Source: Magnolia sinica (lineage: Eukaryota > Streptophyta > Magnoliopsida > Magnoliales > Magnoliaceae). Taken from it: a stretch of DNA of 64,000 nt. This document shows, piece after piece, positions 2,631-51,885 of the stretch. Numbering within the stretch: the first letter of the stretch is position 1; each line of letters opens with the position of its first letter. The position numbers were made by a program, and so were the translations under genes. The DNA lies in the NCBI RefSeq assembly GCF_029962835.1, contig NC_080575.1:42136336-42200335 (forward strand). The letters run 5' to 3'. The notes below the pieces were generated by a model. It saw nothing but the letters and a program-made list of their open reading frames with translations, made no database searches and was not told the origin of the DNA.

Positions 2631-5600
2631 TGTAACACCGCGATTCCCGAAACTCGAGTACACTACTCGTTTTCCAAAAACTCAAGTGTTAACCTTTAAA
2701 GATAGCCCAAATTTCACGTACATTTTTTTTCTTTATCAATATTAGTAATCTAGTGGAATAGAAACAAATCAAGTATAAGAGGGAGTCAAAATAGACATAA
2801 CCAAATCTTCGAATGGTTGCCCGAAAACTTATATGAACCAAAGTCTTAAGTTTTTACAATACATGACAGTACAAATTAAATACGAATGAAATCAAGAATA
2901 TAGAGTCACAAGATCATCTGGCTCCTCCTATTCCACGTGAACACCAGCATGCGCATCATTTGTGTCTCCTGCACACTAAATATAGTTTCATAGCTTCAAT
3001 GGCTATCCCAGTGAGGTATAACCCCTAAGATTTATCGAAACATCAAGATAATTAAGCAAGTTTATCAAAAGCAGTCTATAATGAATATTTTGCAATAACC
3101 ATCATAATAATGAGACATAGTTCATTAGATGTACAAACATTAAATAAATTTCATAATAGTATTCTTGTTTAAATGCATGGATACATGCACATGCTCATAG
3201 ACCTGGGGATGCTCATTTAGCTGGCAAAAAGTCACCCAAGGAGAATTAGCCACTCGGAAAAGACTGTAACAAGGGCACCCAAGGTAATTAGTCTACGAGA
3301 AAAGTCCATGCGAAAAGGAAGGACAGCCTATAGTGGTAAGAATGCACGTGATATTAACTTAAGATCACCTGGGAAAATACTCTATGGTACAATACATGGT
3401 GACCCAAGAAACTCCGTGTCTTACATCGACCACCCGATAAAGTCCGTATGCCATGAAAATACATGATTAGCCAAACTATTATTATTCCAATTTCAAACAG
3501 CCATTTTTAGAAAGCTCAAAGGTCACTATGGGGGCCTCGCCACCCAGCATAGGCTAACAGCTCGAGCATAGTGTCCCATACCACCATCCCCGGCTTATGA
3601 GACTCTAACGAATAACATGTTTAAAGGTAACCTCCTCAACTGGTGGAAAATTATAGTTCTAAAAGTTGAACTTACCATCGCAAGGTTATATGAAGACAAT
3701 CCATTAAAGCCATATAGGAAAAATATTTCATCAAGCCGCATAAGGCAAATAGTCCATCCCAAGGATGTGATAAAAAGGGACTATCTAAAAAGCTACTTAG
3801 GCAACAAATGATCCCTAACATGGCAAGTCCACCATATAATTTCATTTAATCCATTACACAAATGGCCACTGATTCAAGGACTTTTAAATAAACATGTATC
3901 ATTATCTTCAATGAATATTAAATTAAGCAATTAGTGAAATAAATGAACTAAGATAACTATCATGACGTACAAAAAGCTTGAAGGGTGATCCTCACCGTAT
4001 GATGTGGGTACTCTCCTCGCTTCATTAGAAAGTATTCTAAATGAGGGATTTGGGGGAAAATAATTGTCCCTAGCTGCTTTCTACTTTGATATGAACTTAA
4101 AGGCTCAGATCTGGACAATCGGATGATGAGATGTTGAACTGAATCAGCACCCACACAGATAGCACAAGACATTCGACTCCTCAGCCCCACTGAGTCAACT
4201 CGGCTTAACTCGGCAATCCACAACTTTCTTGCCCTTTCTTTCTTCCTCTTTCTTATCCTTTTTCTACTTCCTTTCTTCCCTTTTCTCGTGTTCTCTGCTT
4301 CTCTCTTTTTTCTTCCAACTAGGATGTCCAGCAATGGATGCTCAACCCGGCTTGACTCGGTTAGTTTTAACCGAGTCAACTCGGTGGCGCTCCCCTTTTT
4401 CTCTCTTTCTTCTTTCTTTCCCATTCTTCTCCTCTTTCTTTCTCTACTGAAAATCTACCTGATTCAGAATAAAGACCAAACCCAAATCTGTCCAAATGAG
4501 CTATGACATGCTTCACTCAACCTGGATGACTGAGTAAACCAGCTGATTCACCTAAAGACTCAGTCCGAGTCGACTTGATGCGGCATGTATAACCATCAGC
4601 TCCGACTCAACCCCCCCCCCCCCCCCTCTCTCTCTCTCACAACCAAACATCTTGACCAAACCCACAACCAACATAGACTCAACTTACCTAGACTTGACCC
4701 ATGACTCATTGAGTCGAGTCCACAACTCGACCAGCAACACAAACCATCAGCAACTCGTTTGGGTTAAATTGGTGCGGTACTCGCTGCACCCTCCTAATTC
4801 TCCCCTCCTTTGCTCTGTCCTTCTCTTCTCCTTTTCTTTACTTCCTAAAAGTCCAGGAGCATCTGGACTAAACCTAGACACAGCCCAAACTCGACAGACT
4901 CGGGCCAAGTCTCGGTGCGGCACGACAATAACGGTGGCCCTATTCTCGAGCTCTCTCTCTCTCTCTCGTCATGATTCTACCTTGTCCTTTATTTCCTTCT
5001 TTTCTTGTTCTTCTATTTCTACTATTCTTTCTTTCTTTGTTAGGGAGACTGGATGGAGCTCTAGACTCAGCCCGAACCTACAATGACTCGCATCGAGTCG
5101 ACTCGACTCAGTATGACAGTCGAAATGGCGCAATCGCTCTCCTTTCTCTCCTCTTTTCTAGCTTTCCTCTTTTGGAAAATGTTACCCTAAAAGGTAGACT
5201 TTTTAAAGGCTCTATTAATCTATTCTAGATGGTTCGAAAGTGTAACTAATCAAGGGATTAGTTACGGTCTATAGCTATTTAATCCGTTCTGTTTTGCATT
5301 GTCATAACTGAATAATACTTGCATGGCTATGATCAGACGGTATGGATGATCTTTTCATCGTATGGCCCGTCAAAATGACGTATCTAATCAGCGAATAAGG
5401 CCCATCCCATGATGATGGGTTTCTTGCTCGGACGGAGAAGACGAGGGGCCAATCATGGCGGTTTCTTGTCCAGGGCCCCATCTAATGATCCACTACTTTT
5501 AGATGGATCAGATGGGTCTCTTGATCCTTGTGTGACCCACCATTCATAGAGGTTTTCATAAAACCCAATGGGATCCGAGATATTTAATCGCGACCCAAAA

Positions 5601-8770: not shown

Positions 8771-9387
8771 CCCCCCCTTTCCATTGTGATGGTGAAGATC
8801 CACACCATCCATGGTTAAAATGGGCCCAATGCCCTTCTTATTATATCATATATTTTATATAATATATAATGATATATAATATAATATTATATATATATAA
8901 TATAGGATATATATATATGTGTGTGTGTGTATATTATGTGTATACAGGTGTTGGTGGGCCACATCCATGTGGGACCCACCACAATGAAGTGTATTCCTAT
9001 GCCGTCCAACGTCCTTGGACGCTGGACGTGCTATCGGTGGCCGAACAGTGGAGTGTACACTGACATGGGAGGTTTTAATGAGCTAGCTAAAATGGTGGGC
9101 CACTCATGCAGGCCCCACCTTGATGTATGCATATAATCTAAGCCTTCTATCCCGTTCACCTTGGTGCATTTGATGGGTCCCCATGGACAGCCGTCCATCC
9201 CAAAAATAAGCTTTATACGGAACTCATGTGGGCCACACCATTTAAAATCATGTGAAGACATACCAAAACATATAAATCCACTTGGTGGGGCCTACCTGAG
9301 TTTTGGATGTTGCTGAAACTTAGGTTGGACCGTCAGCTAGATGGGACCCACATAATGGATGGGCTGGATTCATGAACCACATTTCGG

Positions 9388-9803
9388 TGGGCCCCACGTC
9401 CACCGTCCCAGTGACCTTATAAATAGGTTGGACGTCAAAAAAATAAAAAATTAAAAAAATAAACATTACGGTGGGCCCCTCCACCACGTGGCCCTATGAA
9501 CAGGTTGTATGAAAAATAAGCATTTCAGTGGGCCCTTGGTCCACACGACCCCATCAACAGGTTGTATGGAAAATAAATATTACAGTGGGCCCTATCCAGG
9601 CCAACGTGACCTTATGAATAGATTGGATGATAAATAAATATTGCAGTGGGCCCTACCCTGGTCCACATGACCTTATGAACAGTTGGTTGGAAAATAAACA
9701 TTATATTGGGCCCTATGTTGTTTGGAAAATAAATACTACTGTGGGCCCCGGTCTGAATGACCTTATCAATGGGTTGGATGGAAATAAACATTATGGTAGG
9801 CCC
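9388..9803 (+). repeat. Tandem array of about 8 units, period near 57-60 bp
   Basis: The word GTGGGCCC, or a one-base variant, recurs at about 9388, 9471, 9528, 9585, 9646, 9705, 9741 and 9796. Between occurrences each unit repeats TGACCTTATGAA, a GGTTGGATGGAAAATAAA block and CATTACA. Spacings are mostly 55-61 bp, with one long unit (83, an A-rich expansion) and one short unit (36). The unit matches the interior of Mutator-type MITEs seen elsewhere in this window (47590-47640, 48010-48070). Confidence 0.88.
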
Positions 9804-12407: not shown

Positions 12408-13022
12408 TATTATGGGTAAAAATGAACTGACCAGATGAACAAACTTGAAGACTATGAATTGCTTGAGGGCCGAAAAATCACCCCGACCTTACCCTCGGGT
12501 ATCAACCTTGGCCTTAGAGGTTGGCCTCAACCAAAGACCTTGACCTCGGTTACCAACTTTGGAGGTCGGCCTCGGATATTGGCCTCGACCTTGGTTACTA
12601 ACCTTGGAAGTCGGCCCCGGTTACCGACTTCAGCCTTAAGAACTAACTTTGGAGGTCAACCTTGGATAACGACCTTGGCCTCGGGGTAGAAATACACTTA
12701 TAATATATAAAGATAAGATTATCTTCCTAAATATTTGGTATAAAGATAAGATTATCCTCTAAGATATTCGCAAGATATAAGGAAATCAATCATGACACGT
12801 CTGAAGGAAAATCTCTTCCGTAATACGCATTCACCATAAAGAGGCATTACCATATACGACACCACCCCAAAAGGCAATAAATAAGGACATATCATGACTT
12901 AGGCATCAGAGGGTCCCTGGCCTTAACTGGTGCCCCCAATGTCTTCTATTGTTTCATAATAAATCACAGGTACTCCAACGAGCAGGAGTTGAGGAAGGAT
13001 TGATCAGATTTCTACATCAACA
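12408..13022 (+). repeat. 5' LTR of gag-only element
   Basis: Starts TATTATGGGTAAAAATGAAC, where the first G of the expected TG has mutated, and ends TTTCTACATCAACA. Compared with its partner it lacks about 60 bp around the TATA/leader segment and part of the CCTCGG-rich repeat, so it is 615 bp against 725 bp. Confidence 0.88.
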
Positions 13023-13041
13023 ATTTGGCACCGTCTATGGG
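13023..13041 (+). other. Primer-binding-site-like sequence
   Basis: The sequence atttggcaccgtctatggg follows the LTR directly. It matches the TTTGGCGCCGTCTGTGGG junction usual in Tat-lineage elements, with a few changes. The same motif occurs on the other strand at 45688-45703. Confidence 0.8.
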
Positions 13042-13059
13042 AACGACATCAAAGTCATT

Positions 13060-14341
13060 CCTACTTTACCAAAAAACCACAATAGTGAAAGGAAGAAAGA
13101 GAGCTTTGGTTGCCATTGCTACAACTGTTACTACACTAGTGGAATAGTCCACAAACTAAGGAGATCCGTCTTCCCAACTTCAGGCTCATTCTACGCCTGC
13201 ACGCCCTGCGTAGCAGTCCTAAAACCGAGGAGGTCAGCTTGTCTCTCTGGAACATCAAGTCGATGTATTGACCAGTAACATTAATTGGATAATGCAGATT
13301 TTAGAGAGACAAAACCTAGCTCCTGACCAGGGGATAGATGCACGGGCAGCCACCGAGGTCTTTGCACCACCTCAAGTACCAGTCGACTTATAGAGAACCA
13401 AGCAACATCCTGGGCAGCTAAGACATGCGTCCTCCCACATCTCAGGAACTGCCACGCCCGCCAACTCCAACTTGCATCACACGTTGGAGAAGAAGAGGCA
13501 TGGAAAGGATCCCGAGGCGGTAGTCAAGAACAAGTGCCCCTAGAAGGCAGAACTCAAGGAACTGCGAGGTCAGGTCAGCGAAATCCGCAAAGCCTACCAC
13601 GTCCAAATACCGACCTCCATCAAGGCTATAATAGAGGAGATTAAGCCACCATTTACCGACAACATTATGAGAGCCCGACTCCCGGCGAAACTCTGAATGC
13701 CGCAAATCGCTCCCTACTCCAGGTTTAGCGATCTGGTTGAGCATTTGGAATCATTCAGGGCATAGATAGAGCTCCACGGTGCGTCAAGCTCGATTATGTG
13801 CTGAGCCTTCTCCCTGACTTTATTAGGGACTGCATGAAAGTGGTATAGGCAGTTGAAGCCAAGATCTATCAACTCCTTGACATAGCTCAGTAAAGATTTC
13901 ATCACTCAGTTCATCAGTGGAAAAGATAAGAGAAGCCATTGACCCACCTCCTTATGATCACTTAGAGGGAGGATGAGCTGCTAAAAGACTACATCATCCG
14001 TTTCAACGTTGAAGCTGTCCAGGTCGATGGTTATTTCGACCAGATACCTTTGACTGCCATGGTGGCTGGCCTTAAACGAGGGAAGTTCATATTCTCTATT
14101 GGTAAGAACCCCCCAACTACCCTCTCCAACATACTTAATCGAGCTAAAAAATATTCCAATGCTGAGGAGTTTTTTAGTTCATAAAGAGCTACTCGAGAAG
14201 GAAACAATTCGGCTAAGGATAGGAAGCGAAGGGAAGAAGGGGAGTCTTCTACCGTTAAAGCCAAAAGAAAGAAAGAGGACGACAAAGATTGAGGCCAGCA
14301 TACCTCGACATCAGATACTGAGAAGTGCGTCGACTGACTGA
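13060..14341 (+). pseudogene. Tat-type gag, degenerate
   Basis: A broken gag frame. The clearest blocks are ELKELRGQVSEIRKAYHVQI, then KPPFTDNIMRARLP, a stop in place of a residue, MPQIAPYSRFSDLVEHLESFRA (13550-13760) and, in a shifted frame, capsid segments to about 14340. These align by eye with the gag of the minus-strand Tat copy (45701-44703: KPPFTDDIMKAQLP, HIAPYSESSDSAKHLESFRA). Stops and at least one frame change make it non-functional. Confidence 0.8.
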
Positions 14342-14965
14342 CCTACTCAACTAAGAGAGACCTCCCTTTTTAAAAGGAAAAAATGTGCTCGTGATTTTAC
14401 TATTATATTTTCTACTACTTTATGGGCTTCTATAATAAAAGAACTATACAGTTTACTGAGGACTTTCTTTAGTACAAGAAAAAAATAGTCATCAACCAGT
14501 CATCCGACCCTTAGAGAAGATGTTGGACCACTAATTGGCAACGCTACTCGAACTACATGACTGATTATGAGGGCTTCCCTTAGTGTAAGGGAAGAAAATC
14601 CTCCACTGTGAATTCTAATATAAAAGAACCTCCCCAGGTCAGGGGAGGAGAATTTCTTTCAATTCCCTGCTATCCGACCTTGCGATCAACTATGAGGACT
14701 TCCCTTAGTATAAGGGAAGAAAATCCTTCTACTGAGTGCTCGACCTACTAATATGGGAACGACTAGGACTTCTCTCAGTTTAAGGGAAGACAAGTCTCTC
14801 CTATTAATTCTACCATACGTGATTTACCATTGAACAATCGACTTATTGATCTTAGCCCTACTCCATCTGACCTCTTGACCTCTTCAGTGCAAATCATCAC
14901 AAAGTGTTAGTCCCCACTAACTTACTTCTCGAGCTGCTGAAGAATGTTTGAAAGTAGGGAGCTAC
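14342..14965 (+). other. Untranslated 3' internal region with polypurine tract
   Basis: Contains short internal repeats of a GACTTCCCTTAGTATAAGGGAAGA-type unit (around 14460, 14570, 14700 and 14770), each able to form a small stem. It ends in the purine-rich tract gaaagtagggagc (about 14950-14962) just before the second LTR, the expected plus-strand priming site. Nothing coding is seen. Confidence 0.65.
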
Positions 14966-15690
14966 TGTTATGGGTAAAAATGAACTAACAAAATGAATAA
15001 ACTCGAAAACTATGGATTGCTTGAGGACCAAAAAATCACCCTAACCTCACCCACGGGTACCAACCTCGGCCTCAGAGGTCGGCCTCGACCAAAGACCTCA
15101 GCCTCGGAGGTCGGCCTCAACCAAAGACCTCGGCCTTGGAGGTCGACCTCGACCTCGGTTACCAACTTTGGAGGTCGACCTCGGATATCGGCCTCAACCT
15201 CGGTTACCAACTTTAGAGGTCGGCCTCGAATACCGACCTCGACCTCAAGAACCAACTTTGGAGGTCGGCCTCAAATACCGACCTCAGCCTCGGGATAGAA
15301 ATACACATATAATATATAAAGATAGGATTATCTTCTAAGATATTCGCTATAAAGATAGGATTATCCTCCAAGATATTCGCAGGATATAAGGAAATCAATC
15401 ACGACACGTCTGGAGGAAGATATTTTTCGTAATATGCATCTACTATAGAGAAGCATTCCACATATGACACCACCCCAAAAGGCTATAAATAAGGACTCCG
15501 CCTACGGTGAAAGGTACACATACAACACTTGATTCTTCTACTACTCCTGCAAATCCATATCATGACTTAGACATTGAAGGGTCCCCAGCCTTAATCGGCA
15601 CCCCCAATGTCTTCTCTTTTTTCATAATAAATCATAGTTACTCCGGCGAGTAGGAGTTGAGGAAGGATTGACTTGATTTCTGCATCAACA
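14966..15690 (+). repeat. 3' LTR of gag-only element
   Basis: Starts TGTTATGGGTAAAAATGAAC and ends TTTCTGCATCAACA. A TATA box (tataaata) is at 15484-15491. Between about 15045 and 15295 it is built from diverged tandem repeats of a CCTCGGAGGTCGGCCTCGACC-like unit that read through in one frame without stops, a composition effect and not a gene. Confidence 0.9.
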
Positions 15691-23862: not shown

Positions 23863-26205
23863 TGAAAGTGCCCTGGTTTGTCAATTAGCGTGAGCGCTAA
23901 GTCAGTTAGACAGAGGAGCCCCACAGGAAAATTGATCAAGCGTCTACCTCAACTAGATGTGTGACTAAACTCACCATAGGTAAATCTTAGCCTCACATCC
24001 CATGTCCCAAAACACCAGGTAATTAAAACACTTAAAATTAGTTAGAACTTCTTAGGATTTTTAGTTAGAAAACTTTCCCAAACTTCAGGAAAAATCTTTA
24101 AGTTTTCTACCTTGGTCGATTTATCGAAACATGGTTTAATGAAATTGAACCTTGTTATCGATGTCCTCGAAGCTTGCTCGATATTATCGAATTGAGGACA
24201 TAAGATGTCCAACAACCATAAAAATCTCTGGAAGAAATTATCAATGTATCGATAGATGGCTCGATACCATCGTAATTTGAATCTCGAGTCTATCGAAGTA
24301 GACTTGATAAAATCGACATCAAGTCTGTTGTGTCCAAAGTTCCGCTAAGGCAAATCGTGTTCTTTTTAATATATCGAAGAGCTCCTCGATATCCTTGGAA
24401 TTCAAATATCGATGATATCAGAAGCCCTTCGATGATACCGGATTGGACATACATTTCTCTCCAGTAAAGTTTTTCAGGTTGTTTTTCTCAGATCGAGGGT
24501 CACTCGATAAAATCAATATTAAAATATCCATCATATCGAGGCATGGTTGGTGTCATCGAATGTGGACATAAACTGTCCAACAAACTTATAGGAAAATTCC
24601 CTGGAATTATCGATGAATCGACACTGTCCTCGATATCATCGATATTCAAATTCTGATGATATTGAGTGATGCTCGATCATATCGTTTACTTAAAATATTT
24701 CAAAGGTAAGTGCTCTCACATTTTCAAATATCGAGGAATTGAACCTCGTGTCGATGAAATCGGAGTTCGAAATCTGATGACATCGACACACATTCGATTT
24801 CCTCGGCCAACTAGCAAAAGGTTTCAAAAGCGTTTGACATTTGAGTTCGTGTCATCGAGTGGCCAGCTGACGCTATCGAGAGTATAGGCTCGATGATATC
24901 GACCTTGCTCGATGATATCGAACTCTATCAAAAATGTGATCGTTTTATATCCGTTGGAACCTTTTGCCTATTTAATGAGAGCTTGCCCTTAGTTGTTAGA
25001 TAGAGAAAATAAAGAGTGCTTTTGAGTGTTTAACCTTACATCATATACCCTAAGCCTTTTCTCTCATGGAAGTTCATCCTCCAATTCACCCTCATCATTG
25101 ACATTCAATAGAGTGGATTCGGGAATGAACTTCTGCATTCAAGGATCCTACAGGTACCACCTTAATGGCAAATAATTAAGCTGGGATGCCTTGAATGCAT
25201 AGATGATTGGAATCGCTCTATCTCCCTTATAGGAAAATATTTAATAGAGTAGGATTCCATCATAACTTTGACTCAACCTGTCGCCATGTATTGGTACATT
25301 TTCTGAGTTGCGGTTCAAGGAAGCAGAAGATTCTTCGTCAATAAAGGAGGAGATCTTTGAAAACGCGCTAAATGGAGCTCATCTACTTATCTGTAAGTCA
25401 TTAGAGTCCAGAGGACCCTTGTGATCACTCCTTCTGTAGGATTGGGTCTAAGGTGTTTCTCACCCTTTGCAAGTCCTCATAGGAGGCCTCCGGCGGGAGT
25501 GTACATGGGGGTACTTTGTGGTGACCCTTACTCTATGGAGAGCATAAACTCTTAGGTCCTTGTATAGGTCCTTGACCTGTGTGGTCTAAAACCTGGGTGC
25601 TTTGTGTTGACCCTTGCTCATAGAAGCATAAACTTGTGAGGTTCCTTGAGTGGATCCTTGGCTTGTGTGGCCTAAAATCGAGTGTTGTGTGTTGACCCTT
25701 GCTCATGGGAGCATAAAGTGTGTCGTGTAGACACTGTGTGTCTGCCTTAAGTGTAGGTTGTACTGGTTAGAGGTGAACCTGTTGTGAAATCTCCTTTAGT
25801 GAGATCTGGTACACTCAAGGGTTGAGTGCGTCCACCGGAAGTGGAGTAGACAAGTAGTCGAACTACTATAAAAATGACTGTGTTTGAGATTGATATTTGT
25901 CTTCCGTTACTTATGTGATTTTCTTAAATGCTTTCATATTTGATTATCTGAGATCACACCTCACACAGTCATATCCATCATAAATTATGACTCGCATCTT
26001 ATTTATCTGTTAATTAGTTTTATGATTAGATCCTCTATTTGGCTTAGAAGCCATTAAAGTTACTCCGAAGAAATCCTTATGCATGCACATTTATTCAGGA
26101 ATAGATTTTAAATAACCATAAAATATTAAAAAGTCCTATTCACCCCCCTCTAGGACATATTGGCATATTTCCACTTCAACTAAAGCGGTCATTACCATAA
26201 TTTTA
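23863..26205 (+). repeat. 5' LTR of the Sirevirus-like element (2343 bp)
   Basis: Starts TGAAAGTGCCCTGG and ends CATAATTTTA (TG...TA rather than TG...CA, as in its partner). The section 24115-24945 is saturated with TATCGA, ATCGAT and GATATCATCGA words, which are self-complementary. The first ~130 bp differ from the 3' LTR far more than the remainder does. Confidence 0.93.
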
Positions 26206-31082: not shown

Positions 31083-33465
31083 TGAAAGTGCCCTGGTTTG
31101 TCAATTAGTGTGAGCATTGAGTCAGCTATACAAATGAGCCCCATAGGAAGATTAATCAAGCATTTGCCTCAACTGGATGTATGCCCGAACTCGCCACAGG
31201 TAAATCTTAGCCTCACATTCCATGTCCCAAAACACCAGGTAATTAAAACCCTTAAAATTGGTTAGAACTTCCTAAGGTTTTTGGTTAAAAAACTTTCCCA
31301 AACTTCAGGAAAAATCTTTAAGTTTTCTACCTTTGTCAATTTATCGATACATGGTTCGATGAAATTGAACCTTGTTATCGATATCCTCGAAGCTCACTCA
31401 ATATTATCGAATTGAGGACATAAGATGTCCAGCAACCACAAAGATCTCTGGATGAAATTATCGATGTATCGATAGATGGTTCGATATCATCATAATTTGA
31501 ATCTCGAGTCCATCGAAGTAGACTCGATAAAATTGACATCAAGTCTGTTGTATCCAAAGTTTCGCTAAGGTAAATCATGTTATTTTTGATATATTGAAGA
31601 GCTCCTTGATATCCTTAGAATTCAAATATCGATGATATCAAAAGCCCTTCGATGATATCAGATTGGACACACATTTCTATCCAGTAAAGTTTTTAGGTTG
31701 TTTTTCTCGGATCGAGGGTCACTTGATAAAATCAATATTCAAATATCCATCATATCGAGGCATAGTCGATGTCATCGAATGTGGACACAAACTGTCCAGT
31801 AAGCTTATAGAAAAATTCCCTGAAATTATCGATGAATCGACACTGTCCTCGATATCATCGATATTCAAATTCCGATGATATCGAGTGATGCTCGATCATA
31901 TCATTTACCTGAAATATTTCAAAGGCAAGTGCTCTCACATTTTCAAATGTCAAGGAATCGAACCTCGTGTCGATGAAATCGGAGTTTAAAATTTGATGAC
32001 ATCGACACACGTTCGATTTCCTCGACCAGCTGGCAAAAGATTTCAAAAGCGTTTGACATTTGAGTTCGTGTCATCGAGCGGCCAGTCGATGCTATCGAGA
32101 GTATACGCTCCATGATATCGACCCTGCTCGATGATATCGAACTCTGTAAAAAAATGTGACCATTTTATATCCGTTGGAACCTTTTACCTATTTAATGAGA
32201 GCTTGCCCTTGGTTGTTAGATAAAGAAAATAGAGAGTGCTTTTGAGTGTTTAACCTTACATCATATACCCTAAGCCTTTTCTCTCATGGAAGTTCATCCT
32301 CCAATCCACCCTCATCATTGACATTTAATAGAGTGGATTGGGGAATGAACTTCCACATTTAAGGATCCTATAGGTACCACCTTAAGGGTCAATCATTAAG
32401 CTAGGATGCCTTGAATGCATAGATGATTGGAATCACTCTATCTCCCTTATAGAAAATTTTTTAATAGAGTAGGATTCCATCATAACCTTGACCCAACCCG
32501 TCGCCATGTATTAGTACATCTTTTGAGTTGCGGTTCAAGGAAGCAGAAGATTCTTCGTTAACAAAGGAGGAGATCTTTGACAACATTCTGAATGAGGCTC
32601 ATCTACTTATCTATAAGTTATTAGAGTCCAAACGACTCTTATGATCACTCCTTCTGTAGGATTGAGTCTAAGGTATTTCTCACCCCTTGTAAGTCCTCAT
32701 AAGAGGCTTCCAGTGGGAGTGTACATGGGGGTGCTTTGTGTTGACCCTTGCTCTGTGGAGAGCATAAACTCTTAGGTCCTTGTGTAAGTCCTTGACCTGT
32801 ATGGTCTAAAACATGGGTGCTTTGTGTTGACCCTTGATCATAGGAGCATAAACTTGTGAGGTTCCTTGAGTGGATCCTTGGCCTGTGTGGCCTAAAATCA
32901 GGTGCCGTGTGTTGACCCTTGCTCATAGGAGCATAAAGTGTATCATGTAGACATGGTGTGTCAGCATAAGTGTAGGTTGTACTGGTTAGAGGTGAACCTG
33001 ATTTAAAACCTCTGGTTTGAGGTGAACCTGTTGTGAAATCTCTTTTAGTGAGATCCGATACACTCAAGGGTTGAGTGCGTCCGCCGGAAGTGAAGTAGAC
33101 AAGTAGTCGAACCACTATAAAAATGACTGTGTTTGAGATTGATATTTGTCTTCCGTTACTTATGTGATTTCCTTAAATGCTTTCATATTTGATTATCTGA
33201 GATCACACCTCATACACGGTCACATCCATCATAAACTATGATTCGCATCTTATTTATCTGTCAATTAGTTTTATGATTGGATCCTCTATTTGGCTTGGAA
33301 GCCATTAAAGTTACTCCGAAGAAATCCTGATGCATGCACATTTATTTAAGATTAGATTGATAGGATTTTAAATAACCACAAAATATTAAAAAGTCCTATT
33401 CACCCACCTCTAGGATATATTGGGATATTTCCACTTCAACTAAAGTGGTCATTACCGTAATTTTA
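31083..33465 (+). repeat. 3' LTR of the Sirevirus-like element (2383 bp)
   Basis: Same ends as the 5' LTR (TGAAAGTGCC...GTAATTTTA), followed by TSD GTATA at 33466-33470. TCGA-rich palindromic words cluster at 31335-32150. Insertion differences include a 32-bp partial duplication near 33000-33030 (ggtgaacctg repeated) absent from the 5' copy. Confidence 0.93.
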
Positions 33466-45703: not shown

Positions 45704-46453
45704 TGTTGATGCTGAAATCTAGTTGTCCTTATTAAATCCGTTGAGTACCTGCAAAAACCAATCAACAATGGAGACCCTAGCTATGGCAGAGGAACCCTTT
45801 GATGCTTTAGTTAGAACAGGGGATTTGGGTCTAGTTGAGTTAGGGTTTTTGGTGTATACCTCTCATTGTAGGTGAGGTCTCTATTTATAGCTTCGGTGCC
45901 AATTACGTAGATAGAAAGCTTCCCCACTTGCCATGTGTGTATCATAAAAGGGATCTTCTTCCTGATATATTGTCATTATCTTTCCAAGATCTTAGGCAAG
46001 GATCCCGGGAAATCTTACTTTAACAACATCTCCAAGTGGTCAGCCTCCGAGGAGTTGAAGATTAATGACCGAGTCTGACCTCACAGGTGAAGTGGTCGAG
46101 GTCCGTGGTCGACCTTCGATGACCAAAGGTGACCTCGAAGTCATGTTGGTCGAGGTCCCATGCACCGAGCAAAATCACTAATCGTGGTCGAAAATCACCC
46201 TTAAGGTCGAGTCAGTACACAGTCATTGGTCACTAGCTGTTTGTCCTTGGGCTGATCTTGAAAGTAATGCTCGACTGCAAAAATCGATCTGATTCCTCTC
46301 TCATGCTTTATGTCCTTTTAATACTGGTCGATGCTCGGCTGGAATAAGAGTTCAGCCGATGGCAACGGACCAAGCTGTTACCTGACTTCCGTTACTTGCG
46401 CCACGCACTCTTCTACTCCAGATTATCTGGGAAACCCATTTTAACCTATAACA
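45704..46453 (-). repeat. 5' LTR of the minus-strand Tat element
   Basis: On the minus strand it runs from TGTTATAGGTTAAAATGGG (46453) to CAGCATCAACA (45704), 750 bp. A TATA box (TATAAATA on the minus strand) lies at 45882-45889. GTCGAGGTC-type words are frequent at 46040-46200, as in the other LTRs of the family. No matching 3' LTR remains. Confidence 0.85.
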
Positions 46454-46993: not shown

Positions 46994-47745
46994 TCCACAT
47001 GTTGTATAATATACACGCGAGTAGTTGATGCCTTAGATCTGGCATCATCTTTAAATGATCCAAACCGTTCATGCGATGGGCCTTACCATAAATGACAAAC
47101 ATGCATAAGACAGAGCTGCACTATTTACCTTTAACTTCAGCATCCACATTTTTGCCCCACACCATTTTATCTTAACCATTCATCTTGATAACAGACAATT
47201 AGATGGTTAAAATTGTTCCTTGAGCGATATTTTAGAGGAATGACTCATTTACAACGGTACCGATGCTATGGATGGCTCCTAATACGGCAGCGCAGTATAT
47301 GGATGGGGTTTCAGATAAAAGATGGACGCGGATTCCGCGGTCCCCGCCCGCAACGTATTCATTCCTTCATGGACCGGATTCCGTTCTCACCTGCTAGGAC
47401 AGACTCGGTCCTGCCTGGAGATCTGTGGATCCATTGTGATGTATATGTTTTATCCACACTGTCTATCGATTTTTATGGATCATTTTACGGCATTTCACAA
47501 AAAATGAGGTATATCCTAGATTCAAATGGACCACACCAAAGGAAGAAAGATCATTTATAATGACCACCGTTGAAACCTTCATGAGCCCACTGGGCTGTTT
47601 ATTTGCCATCCAATCCGTTCATAAGGTTGCATAGGCCCAGATGAAGAGAAAAAAAAAATATCAGATTGATCAAAACTTCTTCAGCTCTCAAAAAGTTTTA
47701 ACGATCAAATACACACTGTGCGGTGCACTTGAACTTTTTTTCTGC
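46994..47745. other. Mutator-type MITE remnants, no gene
   Basis: Contains gtgatgtatatgttttatcc (47438) and, in the opposite sense, a CACTGGGCTGTTTATTTGCC.ATCCAATC..TTCATAAGG segment (47588-47632). These are characteristic phrases of the bounded element that follows. Own ends were not located. Confidence 0.5.
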
Positions 47746-47754
47746 CTACTTTTA

Positions 47755-48295
47755 GGAAACGGATTGGCTACTCCCCCTGCCACCAGCCAATGGCTGATGG
47801 TCGGTGTTCTGTGGGCCCTATCATGATGTATGTGTTTCATCCATGCCGTCCATCTATTTTTCCAGATCATTTTATGGTATGAGACCAAAAATTAGTTCTA
47901 TCCCAATCTCAAGTGAACCACATTACAGGAAACACTGTTGAATGAGCGTAGACCATTAAAAAAATTTTAGGGGCCATAAAAGTTTTGGAACAAGATGATC
48001 TTTGTTTTTTCCCTTCATCTGGGCCTGTATGACCTAATCAATATATTGGATGTCAAATAGACAGTACAGTGGGCGTTAGGAGGATTTTAATGATGGATAT
48101 CCAATCACTATTTTTTTTTTCCTGTTTTGTGCTTTACCTGAGATTTATATCCGTCTCATTTCTGGGCTAAACCCTAAAATGACCTGTAAAAATGGATGGA
48201 CGGAATGGATGAAACACATACATCATGGTAGGTCCCACAGAGCACCAGCCATCAGCCACGGGGCTGGTGCCAGGGGGAGTAGCCAATCCGTTTCC
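47755..48295. mobile_element. Mutator-type MITE with long terminal inverted repeats (9-bp TSD)
   Basis: Inverted repeats of about 130 bp: left from GGAAACGGATTGGCTACTCC (47755), right ending at 48295 with its complement. The flanking 9-bp sequences are ctactttta (47746-47754) and ctattttta (48296-48304), one difference. Long inverted repeats plus a 9-bp duplication fit Mutator-like elements. There is no transposase. The interior carries a GACCTAATCAATATATTGGATG..CAGTGGG segment that recurs in the array at 9388-9803. Confidence 0.87.
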
Positions 48296-48616: not shown

Positions 48617-48621
48617 GTAGT

Positions 48622-49221
48622 TGCTGATGTTGAGATATGGATGTCCTCACTAGAAAGCTGCGCCCCTAGTCCAGTAGAACTTAGGATGTATTTTTGTGCG
48701 TACCTTTCACCGTAAGTTTCACCCTAGGTAAGGCTCTTATTTATAGTCTTTTGATGTTAATAAGGTATACAACAATACCTTTGTATGGTATATGCATACT
48801 ACGGAATAAGTCTTCTTCCGAACGTGTCGTAGTTCTCGAGATCCTCGCCGAGGATATCGAAGAGATTCTCTCGATAAGATCTCCTAGTGGTCGGGGTCCA
48901 AGGAGATCAGAGTAGAAGATTGAGGATGACCTCCAAGTCAGCTGGGTCGAGGTCTTATAGATGGAGCTATATTGTCGATCATGGTCAATGCTCTACTTCG
49001 AGGCAAGATGGGTCAACACTCATGGTTGTTTGCTGGTTGCATGGCCGTTCTTTGGACACGATAGTGAGACACCAGCCATGGGCCAAGGTCAGTGCTTGTG
49101 ATAGGTACTTCAGTTTGTTTGCAGAGGTCATCCTCAACAGTCGAGGCCGAGCTACCTTCTTTTGAACGCTCTTTGTTCTCCCTCATCCAGTTGTTTGATC
49201 AGTCCATTTTTACCCATAACA
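48622..49221 (-). repeat. Left LTR of the palindromic element
   Basis: On the minus strand it runs from TGTTATGGGTAAAAATGGAC (49221) to CAACATCAGCA (48622). It is 600 bp, against 642 bp for its inverted partner. Confidence 0.88.
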
Positions 49222-49732
49222 GTATCCCTCTTACATTCGAGCATTCTTTATAAGCTCGAGAAGTAAGTTGATGTATATCGACACATATACAATGCCCTGC
49301 GCTAGAGAATTAGAGAGGATGGTAGGTCGAGCTTATTCATCATCATTGCGGAAGAGGGGGAGGCGGTTAGCACGTAGATCAAGGAGGATCTAACGGTGAT
49401 TGCAACGAGGTGCTTGAGGAGGAGTGCTCTGAAACAGTGCCTCTTCGGTCCTCAACGTATAGGGAGGAGACATGTGATCCTCTTTGGAACTCCTTATACG
49501 TTGAGGACCGAGGAGGCACCGTTTCAGAGCACACCTCCTCGAGCACCTCGCCGCAATCACTGTTGGATCCTCCTTGATCTACGTGCTAATCGTCTTCCCT
49601 TATTGCGCAATGATGAAAAATAAGCCCGACTTACCATCCTTTCTAACTCTCTAGCACAAGGCATTGTATATGTGTCAGTCAACATCAACTTATTTCTCAA
49701 GATTACAAAGAACACTTGGAAGTAGGGGCTAT

Positions 49733-50374
49733 TGTTATGAGTAAAAATGGACTGACCAAACAACTCGATGAGGGAGAATAAAGAGTGTTCAAAAGAAGGT
49801 AGCTTGGCCTCGACTGTTGAGGATGACCTCTGTAAACAAACTCAAGTGCATATCACAAGCAGTGACCTCGGCCCTGGCTAATGTCTCACTATCTTGACCA
49901 AAGAACGACCACGCAACCAATAAACGACCATGAGTGTTGACCCAATCTGCCTCAAAGCAGAGAATTGACCACGATCGATAGTATAGTTCTATCTATAAGA
50001 CCTCGACCCAGCCAACCTGTAGGTTGTCCTCGGTCATATACTTTGATCTCCTCGGACCCCGACCACTTGGAGATCTTATCGAGAGGATCTCGGGAAGATA
50101 ACTATGACATGTTCGAAAGAAGACTCCTTCCGCAATATGCATCTACCATACAATGATATTGACGTATACGTTATCGGCATGAAAAAGCTATAAATAAGAG
50201 CCTTACCTAAAGTGAAAGGTACGCACAAGATACATTCTAAGTTCTATTAGACCCAGAGTCCATGCCTTCACTTTGGCATTGGATGGTCCCCTGCTATAAC
50301 CAGAGTCTCCATTGTTATTTGCTTTTGCAAGTGCACAGCGGTCTAATGAGGATGTCCAAATGTCAATATCAACA
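49733..50374 (+). repeat. Right LTR of the palindromic element
   Basis: Runs from TGTTATGAGTAAAAATGGAC to CAATATCAACA. The purine tract ggaagtaggggctat precedes it. It belongs to the same LTR family as 12408/14966 and 51247/54645. Confidence 0.88.
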
Positions 50375-50752
50375 GTAGTGATTGAATATCCTCCATTAAC
50401 AACCTCTTAAGCCCACTGTAATGTTTATTTGACGTGCGACCGGTTGAATGGGTCATAAATACGAGAATGAAAGAAAAAAAAAAATATTTGCTTATGCAAA
50501 AATTTTGTAGCCCCGAAGAAGTTTTTAATGGGCAAGTTCAATGAATGCAAATTTTCTATGATAAAGTTTACTTGAGATTTGGATCTACTTCAATTTTTTA
50601 GCTCATACCATATACCATAAAATGATATGAAATTTTTTGGCTCATACTATATACCATAAAATGATATGAAAAAATGGATGAGTGGTGTACTTACACTATG
50701 TTAAGGCCCACAAAGCAATATCACTAGTCAATCTGCATATCATCAACCCTAA
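50375..50752. other. Right part of interrupted MITE and unassigned sequence
   Basis: 50405-50470 completes the Mutator-type MITE interior. 50590-50670 has a short tandem duplication (tcataccatataccataaaatgatatga twice, about 45 bp apart). No gene is seen. Confidence 0.55.
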
Positions 50753-51246: not shown

Positions 51247-51885
51247 TGTTATGGGTAAAAATGGACTGACCAATAAGACAAGGTTAGGTCAAACATCCAT
51301 GCGCGTCATGAGCTCAGCCGCCACAAGATGAAGTGCCCACTTCCATCAGACATCAAGCTCTTCTATGGTCTCATACATTTTTGAGTTGTCGCTCGGGTCA
51401 TTTCTTGAGAACAGCTCCTGCCCCATGCGATAAGATGAAGAGGATGGTCATCCTAGATTTTGTCTACATTTTACTAGGGAAAGGAACTTGGCTTCTGTGC
51501 TTGGACAAAGGCAAGTTAGTAGGTCGACCATCCACTTGATATCGAAGGGAAGCCTGACCACGATTAACTAGAGAATTCAAGTCAGCAAACCGCTCTTAGA
51601 AGCAACCATATAATTCGCCTAAAACTCCTATCGCGCGCTTCTACTAGTTCTGACCTGCTATTGATTGTCCAAATCTTACCAAAACTACTTGTCTGAGATC
51701 TCAGCTGAGGGTCTCAGGAAATAATTGCAACACAGGTTTGTACAGGATCTTCGATGAAGATCTTAGAAGAACATTGCAATTCGCTTTGGATCTGAATGCC
51801 TCTACAATACGCTACTACTAAATAGGGAGATCATCCCATATGCCACCACCATCTCTCACCTAATGGTGAAAGGTACGCACAATCT
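51247..51885 (+). repeat. 5' LTR, 3'-truncated
   Basis: Matches 54645-55310 closely (shared gacatcaagctcttc..ggtc, ttgagaacagctcctgcccc and gtgaaaggtacgcacaat) and then stops just after the leader. The U5 end and primer-binding site are gone, which places the deletion junction near 51885. Confidence 0.85.

Follow-up and report, generated by a model that had tools for sequence, protein, structure and literature searches.

A palindromic LTR-derived unit with a U5 end at both outer edges, apparently inserted as a single event, in the genome of Magnolia sinica

Structure of the palindromic unit

The window analysed here is a stretch of 64,000 nucleotides from Magnolia sinica (contig NC_080575.1, positions 42,136,336 to 42,200,335 of the forward strand). 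Positions 48622–50374 of this window form a palindrome, which self-alignment resolves into two arms of 845 and 885 bp around a 23-nt centre (Table 1). The left arm (49466–48622) and the right arm (49490–50374) are 83% identical, the main BLAST block having 624 matches in 756 positions and a score of 721 bits. Among 100 shuffled versions of the left arm that preserved its dinucleotides, the highest score was 26.9 bits. Read from the centre outwards, each arm begins with approximately 245 bp of internal sequence, which is followed by a purine-rich tract and then by an LTR whose U5 end is outermost. The first-pass annotation, made from the same sequence, had described inverted arms of about 850–885 bp, each with about 245 bp of internal sequence and a full LTR, around a centre of about 21 bp, the whole being flanked by a perfect GTAGT duplication. 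The inverted arrangement, the composition of the arms and the duplication are all confirmed. However, the arms differ in length by indels, the centre is longer than estimated and the two LTRs are not equal in content: the left one is missing approximately 75 nt close to its 3' end, present in the right one, from which blocks of approximately 19 and 12 nt are absent.

Table 1. Features of the palindromic unit and its target site, in window coordinates
Feature	Position	Strand	Basis
Target site duplication GTAGT, left copy	48617..48621	.	direct sequence; paralogous empty sites
Left LTR, U5 end at 48622, outward-reading	48622..49221	-	comparison with other copies
Putative TATA box TATAAATA of left LTR, pointing outwards	48738..48745	-	motif only
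Left-arm internal 3' sequence and purine-rich PPT-like tract adjoining the LTR	49222..49466	-	alignment
23-nt centre; left-arm strand resembles native sequence upstream of the arm	49467..49489	-	shuffles, 4 of 5 relatives
Right-arm internal 3' sequence and purine-rich PPT-like tract	49490..49732	+	alignment
Right LTR, U5 end at 50374, outward-reading	49733..50374	+	comparison with other copies
Putative TATA box of right LTR, pointing outwards	50189..50196	+	motif only
Target site duplication GTAGT, right copy	50375..50379	.	direct sequence; paralogous empty sites

Both LTRs start with TGTTATG, and their 3' termini read CATCAGCA in the left arm and TATCAACA in the right arm. The unit has termini of the TG..CA type (TGCTGATG..ATCAACA), and by eye a PPT-like purine-rich tract precedes the LTR start in both arms. 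The LTRs are inverted and not direct, as they would be in a canonical LTR retrotransposon, and a PBS is absent, both U5 ends adjoining the duplicated host DNA directly. The motif TATAAATA faces out of the element in both LTRs, in agreement with the outward TATA boxes of the first-pass annotation.

The identity of the outer edges was established by comparison with other copies. The terminal sequence of the window unit is the LTR end in 19 rows from 17 other loci compared, a set that includes both arms of a second palindrome (L009, see below) and three loci (L013, L014 and L018) ending in variants other than CA. A PBS-like GTTGGC directly follows the LTR end in four of the 19 rows (L021, L023, L025 and L026), as in a 5' LTR, and near variants of it follow in L024 and L028. 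Since the same sequence ends LTRs elsewhere, with the PBS-like sequence next to it in some of them, the window unit has a U5 end at each of its outer edges.

A single insertion into a host repeat

Similarity between the two flanks of the window unit stops after the 5-bp GTAGT. When the flanks were joined with one GTAGT and compared with other loci, 14 rows crossed the junction by more than 20 nt, one of which was the self match. The remaining 13, distributed over eight loci, are host-repeat copies at 61–72% identity. Five of these 13 are gap-free in GTAGT and within 5 nt of it (L014 at 6710 and 7845, L013 at 6718 and 7812, and L027 at 6068), and the other eight have gaps of 1–6 nt in the motif or close by; L013 and L014 are closely alike and do not represent independent empty-site rows. 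As these 13 copies run through the joined flanks, the window flanks were contiguous before the insertion.

Among the situations in which its reading would fail, the first-pass annotation had named GTAGT lying within a larger duplicated host segment. This is not what we found: flank similarity ends at 5 bp, and the paralogs carry no second copy. Its proposal that the palindrome integrated as one unit with U5 at both edges stands. The exact 5-bp duplication, the 13 empty-site rows and the existence of a separate second palindrome support the interpretation of the window palindrome as one insertion event with an LTR 3' (U5) end at both outer edges.

The host repeat itself (window 47412–48295 and 50380–50700) is diverged, palindromic and MITE-like by appearance. 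Clustered copies of it are present in L013, L014 and other loci. With regard to ordinary copies of the element, flanking duplications match at four of five positions in L025/L010 (AGTAA/GGTAA) and L019 (TAAGT/CAAGT) and at three of five in L016; the ordinary copies in L013–L015 have no matching flanking duplication.

A second palindrome on another chromosome

A genome-wide search of the 1.84-Gb assembly with the window unit yielded 1206 candidates, 40 of which were scored. Besides the self match, these were single LTRs, the longest at 72–79% identity and shorter ones at up to 86% over 218 nt. One scored locus, L009, had two opposed matches, C5:114202922–114203252 (-) and 114203598–114203883 (+), and lies on another chromosome. 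The palindrome at this locus (L009 3423–4406, 984 bp) also has U5 at both outer edges, is flanked by a perfect duplication of ATTTG and has termini of the TG..CA type (TGTTGATG..TTAACA); the identity between its arms is 84% over 446 aligned columns. The arms begin inside the LTR; consequently, the PPT-like tract is absent and the inner breakpoint is unlike that of the window unit. No empty-site paralog spanning ATTTG was present among the loci compared.

In a tree of 27 LTR rows, the arms of each palindrome pair up, with support of 100/96 for L009 and 84/70 for the window, whose branch is unstarred. The two palindromes fall into different starred subfamily sets (100/99 and 96/91), which indicates that they arose separately. 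The first-pass annotation had asked whether the window unit recurs with different flanks. It does not do so among the scored candidates of two genome searches: a second copy of the whole unit, from either the window or L009, was seen neither among the 40 scored of 1206 candidates nor among the 40 scored of 2468.

Three scans of the genome with LTR-end patterns found 79, 430 and 161 places; the lists covered 79, 100 and 100 of these, respectively, and the reversed-pattern controls gave 0. The places listed comprise 162 distinct LTR 3' ends, among which there are eight pairs of neighbours no more than 20 kb apart: five with like-oriented members, the two palindromes and one outward pair 13 kb apart. 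The palindrome pairs, with start coordinates 1720 bp (window) and 950 bp (L009) apart, are the only outward-facing pairs within 2 kb among the 162 listed ends, and no inward-facing pair occurs among them. The third pattern was built to fit the window ends and L009 was already known, so that the scans show rarity among the listed ends and not a fresh discovery. With 330 and 61 places outside the listed set, the genome holds at least these two palindromes.

The outward pair on C9 (72382324-/72395647+) was considered as a further palindrome and rejected, as it represents two ordinary elements with PBS-like sequence following the right-hand end. Other palindromes were seen in L013, L014, L015, L017, L021, L023, L027, L029 and L030. 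A scan for the LTR END motif detected no opposed pair in seven of these palindromic loci (L013, L014, L015, L017, L021, L023 and L027). In L030, positions 9143–9519 (377 nt) and their reverse complement can be aligned at 93% identity.

Centres and inner junctions

In L010, L012a, L012b and L026, the sequence that immediately precedes the arm is similar to the 23-nt window centre when the centre is read on the left-arm strand; 2, 16, 2 and 26 of 500 shuffles, respectively, were as good. In these four relatives the centre scores better on the left-arm strand than on the right-arm strand. The upstream sequence of L011 showed no resemblance to it, as 161 of 500 shuffles did equally well. The strand switch of the window unit shows no clear microhomology. 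The inner ends of the arms are separated by 23 nt in the window and by 11 nt in L009, the latter measured on the LTR of L026.

The stretch between the L009 arms is missing from all six LTRs compared. However, we abandoned its interpretation as foreign filler because positions 3846–3922 match antisense internal sequence of a relative (L010 2965–2889) at 82% over 77 nt, with an E value of 4e-17 when all loci were compared. The match covers 66 of 80 positions when extended, and the best of 60 shuffles gave an E value of 0.002. It was found in L010 only, and not in L026 or in eight other relatives tested singly; the matching stretch is flanked by sequence that is colinear between L010 and L026. 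L031, sought as the 3' half of another relative, had no match to the arm, loop or internal piece. At the joint, TCGAG is common to the L009 centre and the L009 left arm, and the right-hand switch point is blurred over approximately 20 nt.

Thus, both centres resemble sequence of their own element in minus-strand order, moderately in the window and clearly in L009, there with one relative only. One strand of each palindrome appears to run through U5', R', U3' and further element sequence and then into the complementary strand, out to U5. This order matches that of a minus-strand cDNA that changed template.

Age and affiliation

The K2P distance between the window arms is 0.195 overall (0.186 for the internal part and 0.198 for the LTR), and that between the L009 arms is 0.180, with some unmatched inner columns included. 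The tree path between the arms is 0.186 for the window and 0.144 for L009, and three presumed ordinary LTR pairs give 0.127, 0.215 and 0.219. The divergence of the arms (K2P 0.195) indicates that the window insertion is old, no substitution rate being assumed. The tree paths of both palindromes lie within the range of the three presumed ordinary LTR pairs, which would be expected for arms that were nearly identical when they were inserted.

A full-length relative is located on C2, with L025 as its 5' LTR and L010 as its 3' LTR, and 18 stop-to-stop pieces between them were scanned. RVT_1 and RNase H pieces are found in L025 and rve in the adjoining L010, in that order and on the same strand, as in Ty3/gypsy elements. 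From the PBS and the style of the LTRs, the elements probably belong to the Tat-like lineage of this group. The window unit shares with Ty3/gypsy LTR retrotransposons the LTRs, the TG..CA ends, the 5-bp duplication and the PPT-like tract, and it has a relative with reverse transcriptase, RNase H and integrase. It differs from them in its inverted LTRs, in the absence of a PBS and of the 5' internal half, and in having U5 at both termini.

Discussion

We propose that reverse transcription of a Ty3/gypsy-type LTR retrotransposon gave rise to an inverted-dimer cDNA, which the integrase of the element then inserted; judging from the DNA alone, we give this reading a probability of roughly 0.58. 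The arms carry only early products of minus-strand synthesis, that is U5, R and U3, with the PPT and 3' internal sequence in addition in the window. The nascent minus strand would have stalled early, and the reverse transcriptase could then have switched onto a complementary minus strand, either a sister strand templated by the other packaged RNA copy or the nascent strand itself after folding back. It would have copied outwards along this acceptor to the U5 end. As a hairpin alone gives no two open ends, a second templated step must be assumed, in which the acceptor strand would be extended across the junction to yield a double-stranded U5–U5 palindrome. Integrase would finally have processed and joined the two identical U5 ends. 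The first-pass annotation had suggested just this use of two identical ends of an inverted dimer, or a palindrome formed by strand switching before integration, and the evidence for a single insertion, together with L009, lends weight to it.

According to a review (PMC12789967), RSV integrase is proposed to have stricter sequence needs at U5 than at U3. Although it comes from another element, this proposal is compatible with the use of two U5 ends. Taken together, the two palindromes suggest that reverse transcriptase and integrase are able to produce and use DNA whose two ends are identical. More tentatively, inverted minus-to-minus template switching might be a recurrent branch of LTR-retrotransposon replication, in which U5–U5 cDNAs integrate in the germline and persist as a class of U5-out palindromes missed by direct-LTR annotation.

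The main rival is co-integration, by one integrase complex, of two truncated cDNAs that each carried a single U5 end, after which the host joined their inner ends with short filler. It predicts the same outer anatomy, with U5 ends out and a 5-bp duplication; the L009 centre could be filler from another cDNA, and the window junction is without clear microhomology. We nevertheless consider it less likely, since the near-coincident inner ends and the minus-strand order weigh against it. With random breaks on a 3.4-kb cDNA, a length taken from the LTR spacing of the neighbouring element, inner ends as close as 23 and 11 nt would have a chance of approximately 1% each, an argument that a shared pause or break site would void.

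Reduction of two opposed ordinary elements, or of one element with an internal inversion, by later deletion and recombination appears improbable. The region is rich in related elements, and the pair on C9 illustrates that ordinary elements do occur in opposed orientation 13 kb apart. However, the duplications remaining after two insertions had been rearranged would not match each other, whereas the window has one matching pair at the exact U5 ends as well as empty-site paralogs, and the duplications of L009 match too. A DNA transposon of the foldback or MITE-like type, mobilised by a transposase after acquiring LTR sequence, would account for terminal inverted repeats and a short duplication, and the surrounding host repeat is itself palindromic. 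We regard this as very improbable: in some other copies the terminal sequence directly precedes the PBS-like GTTGGC (or its near variants), no recurrence as a family with different flanks was seen among the scored candidates, and L009 belongs to another subfamily and has another inner breakpoint. Palindromes are a known artefact of long reads, but an inverted chimeric read is scarcely credible here, as such artefacts are expected to give near-identical arms, the observed arms differ by approximately 17%, and the duplication and the second case would be left unexplained.

Several known systems bear a partial likeness to the unit. Solo LTRs and TRIMs are likewise short, non-coding, LTR-derived insertions with a target duplication. 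However, a solo LTR is a single LTR bounded by U3 on one side and U5 on the other, and a TRIM has direct LTRs, a PBS and a PPT, so that the window palindrome is neither. Autointegration products of Moloney MLV are also aberrant retroelement DNA with inverted parts; Shoemaker et al. reportedly described such a circle with an inverted segment in 1980. In autointegration an LTR end attacks its own DNA, whereas the window unit has no LTR end at its inner junction and is chromosomal, with a duplication. Concerted integration in vitro is possible with two identical viral ends, and there, too, integrase pairs two U5 ends; the present case differs in being a germline fossil deduced from its sequence. 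Among the matches listed, which came mainly from the open-access literature, we found no description of a U5-out palindrome that lies in a chromosome and carries a duplication of its own; this is weak evidence of absence.

If the proposed reading is correct, the window unit represents natural germline evidence for a concerted integrase reaction on two identical U5 ends, and it indicates that reverse transcription can yield inverted dimers. Their own duplication makes U5-out insertions countable in any assembly, and the frequency of the pathway thereby measurable. The first-pass suggestion that transcripts of the two arms could fold on each other is unlikely, because the TATA motifs point outwards and transcripts from the unit's own promoters would lack one arm. 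Hairpin RNA would arise only from read-through transcription starting outside the palindrome. When the unit was young, such transcripts would have been near-perfect hairpins and may have been a source of silencing small RNAs.

Related elements in the window and in L024

Just downstream of the palindrome, from window position 51247 to approximately 55440, lies a related element with two direct LTRs that are 88% identical over their first 241 nt. Further LTRs of the same broad group are found at 12408–15624 and 45704–46226, and the LTR copy at 45704 (-) has PBS-like sequence next to it. Direct repeats at 23863–26205 and 31083–33465, approximately 7.2 kb apart and 89–96% identical, are possibly the LTRs of another element. 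In L024 (4264–8313), two LTRs stand in a row, each after internal 3' sequence, and the upstream one is then followed by PBS-like sequence; this arrangement resembles a tandem element with a common LTR.
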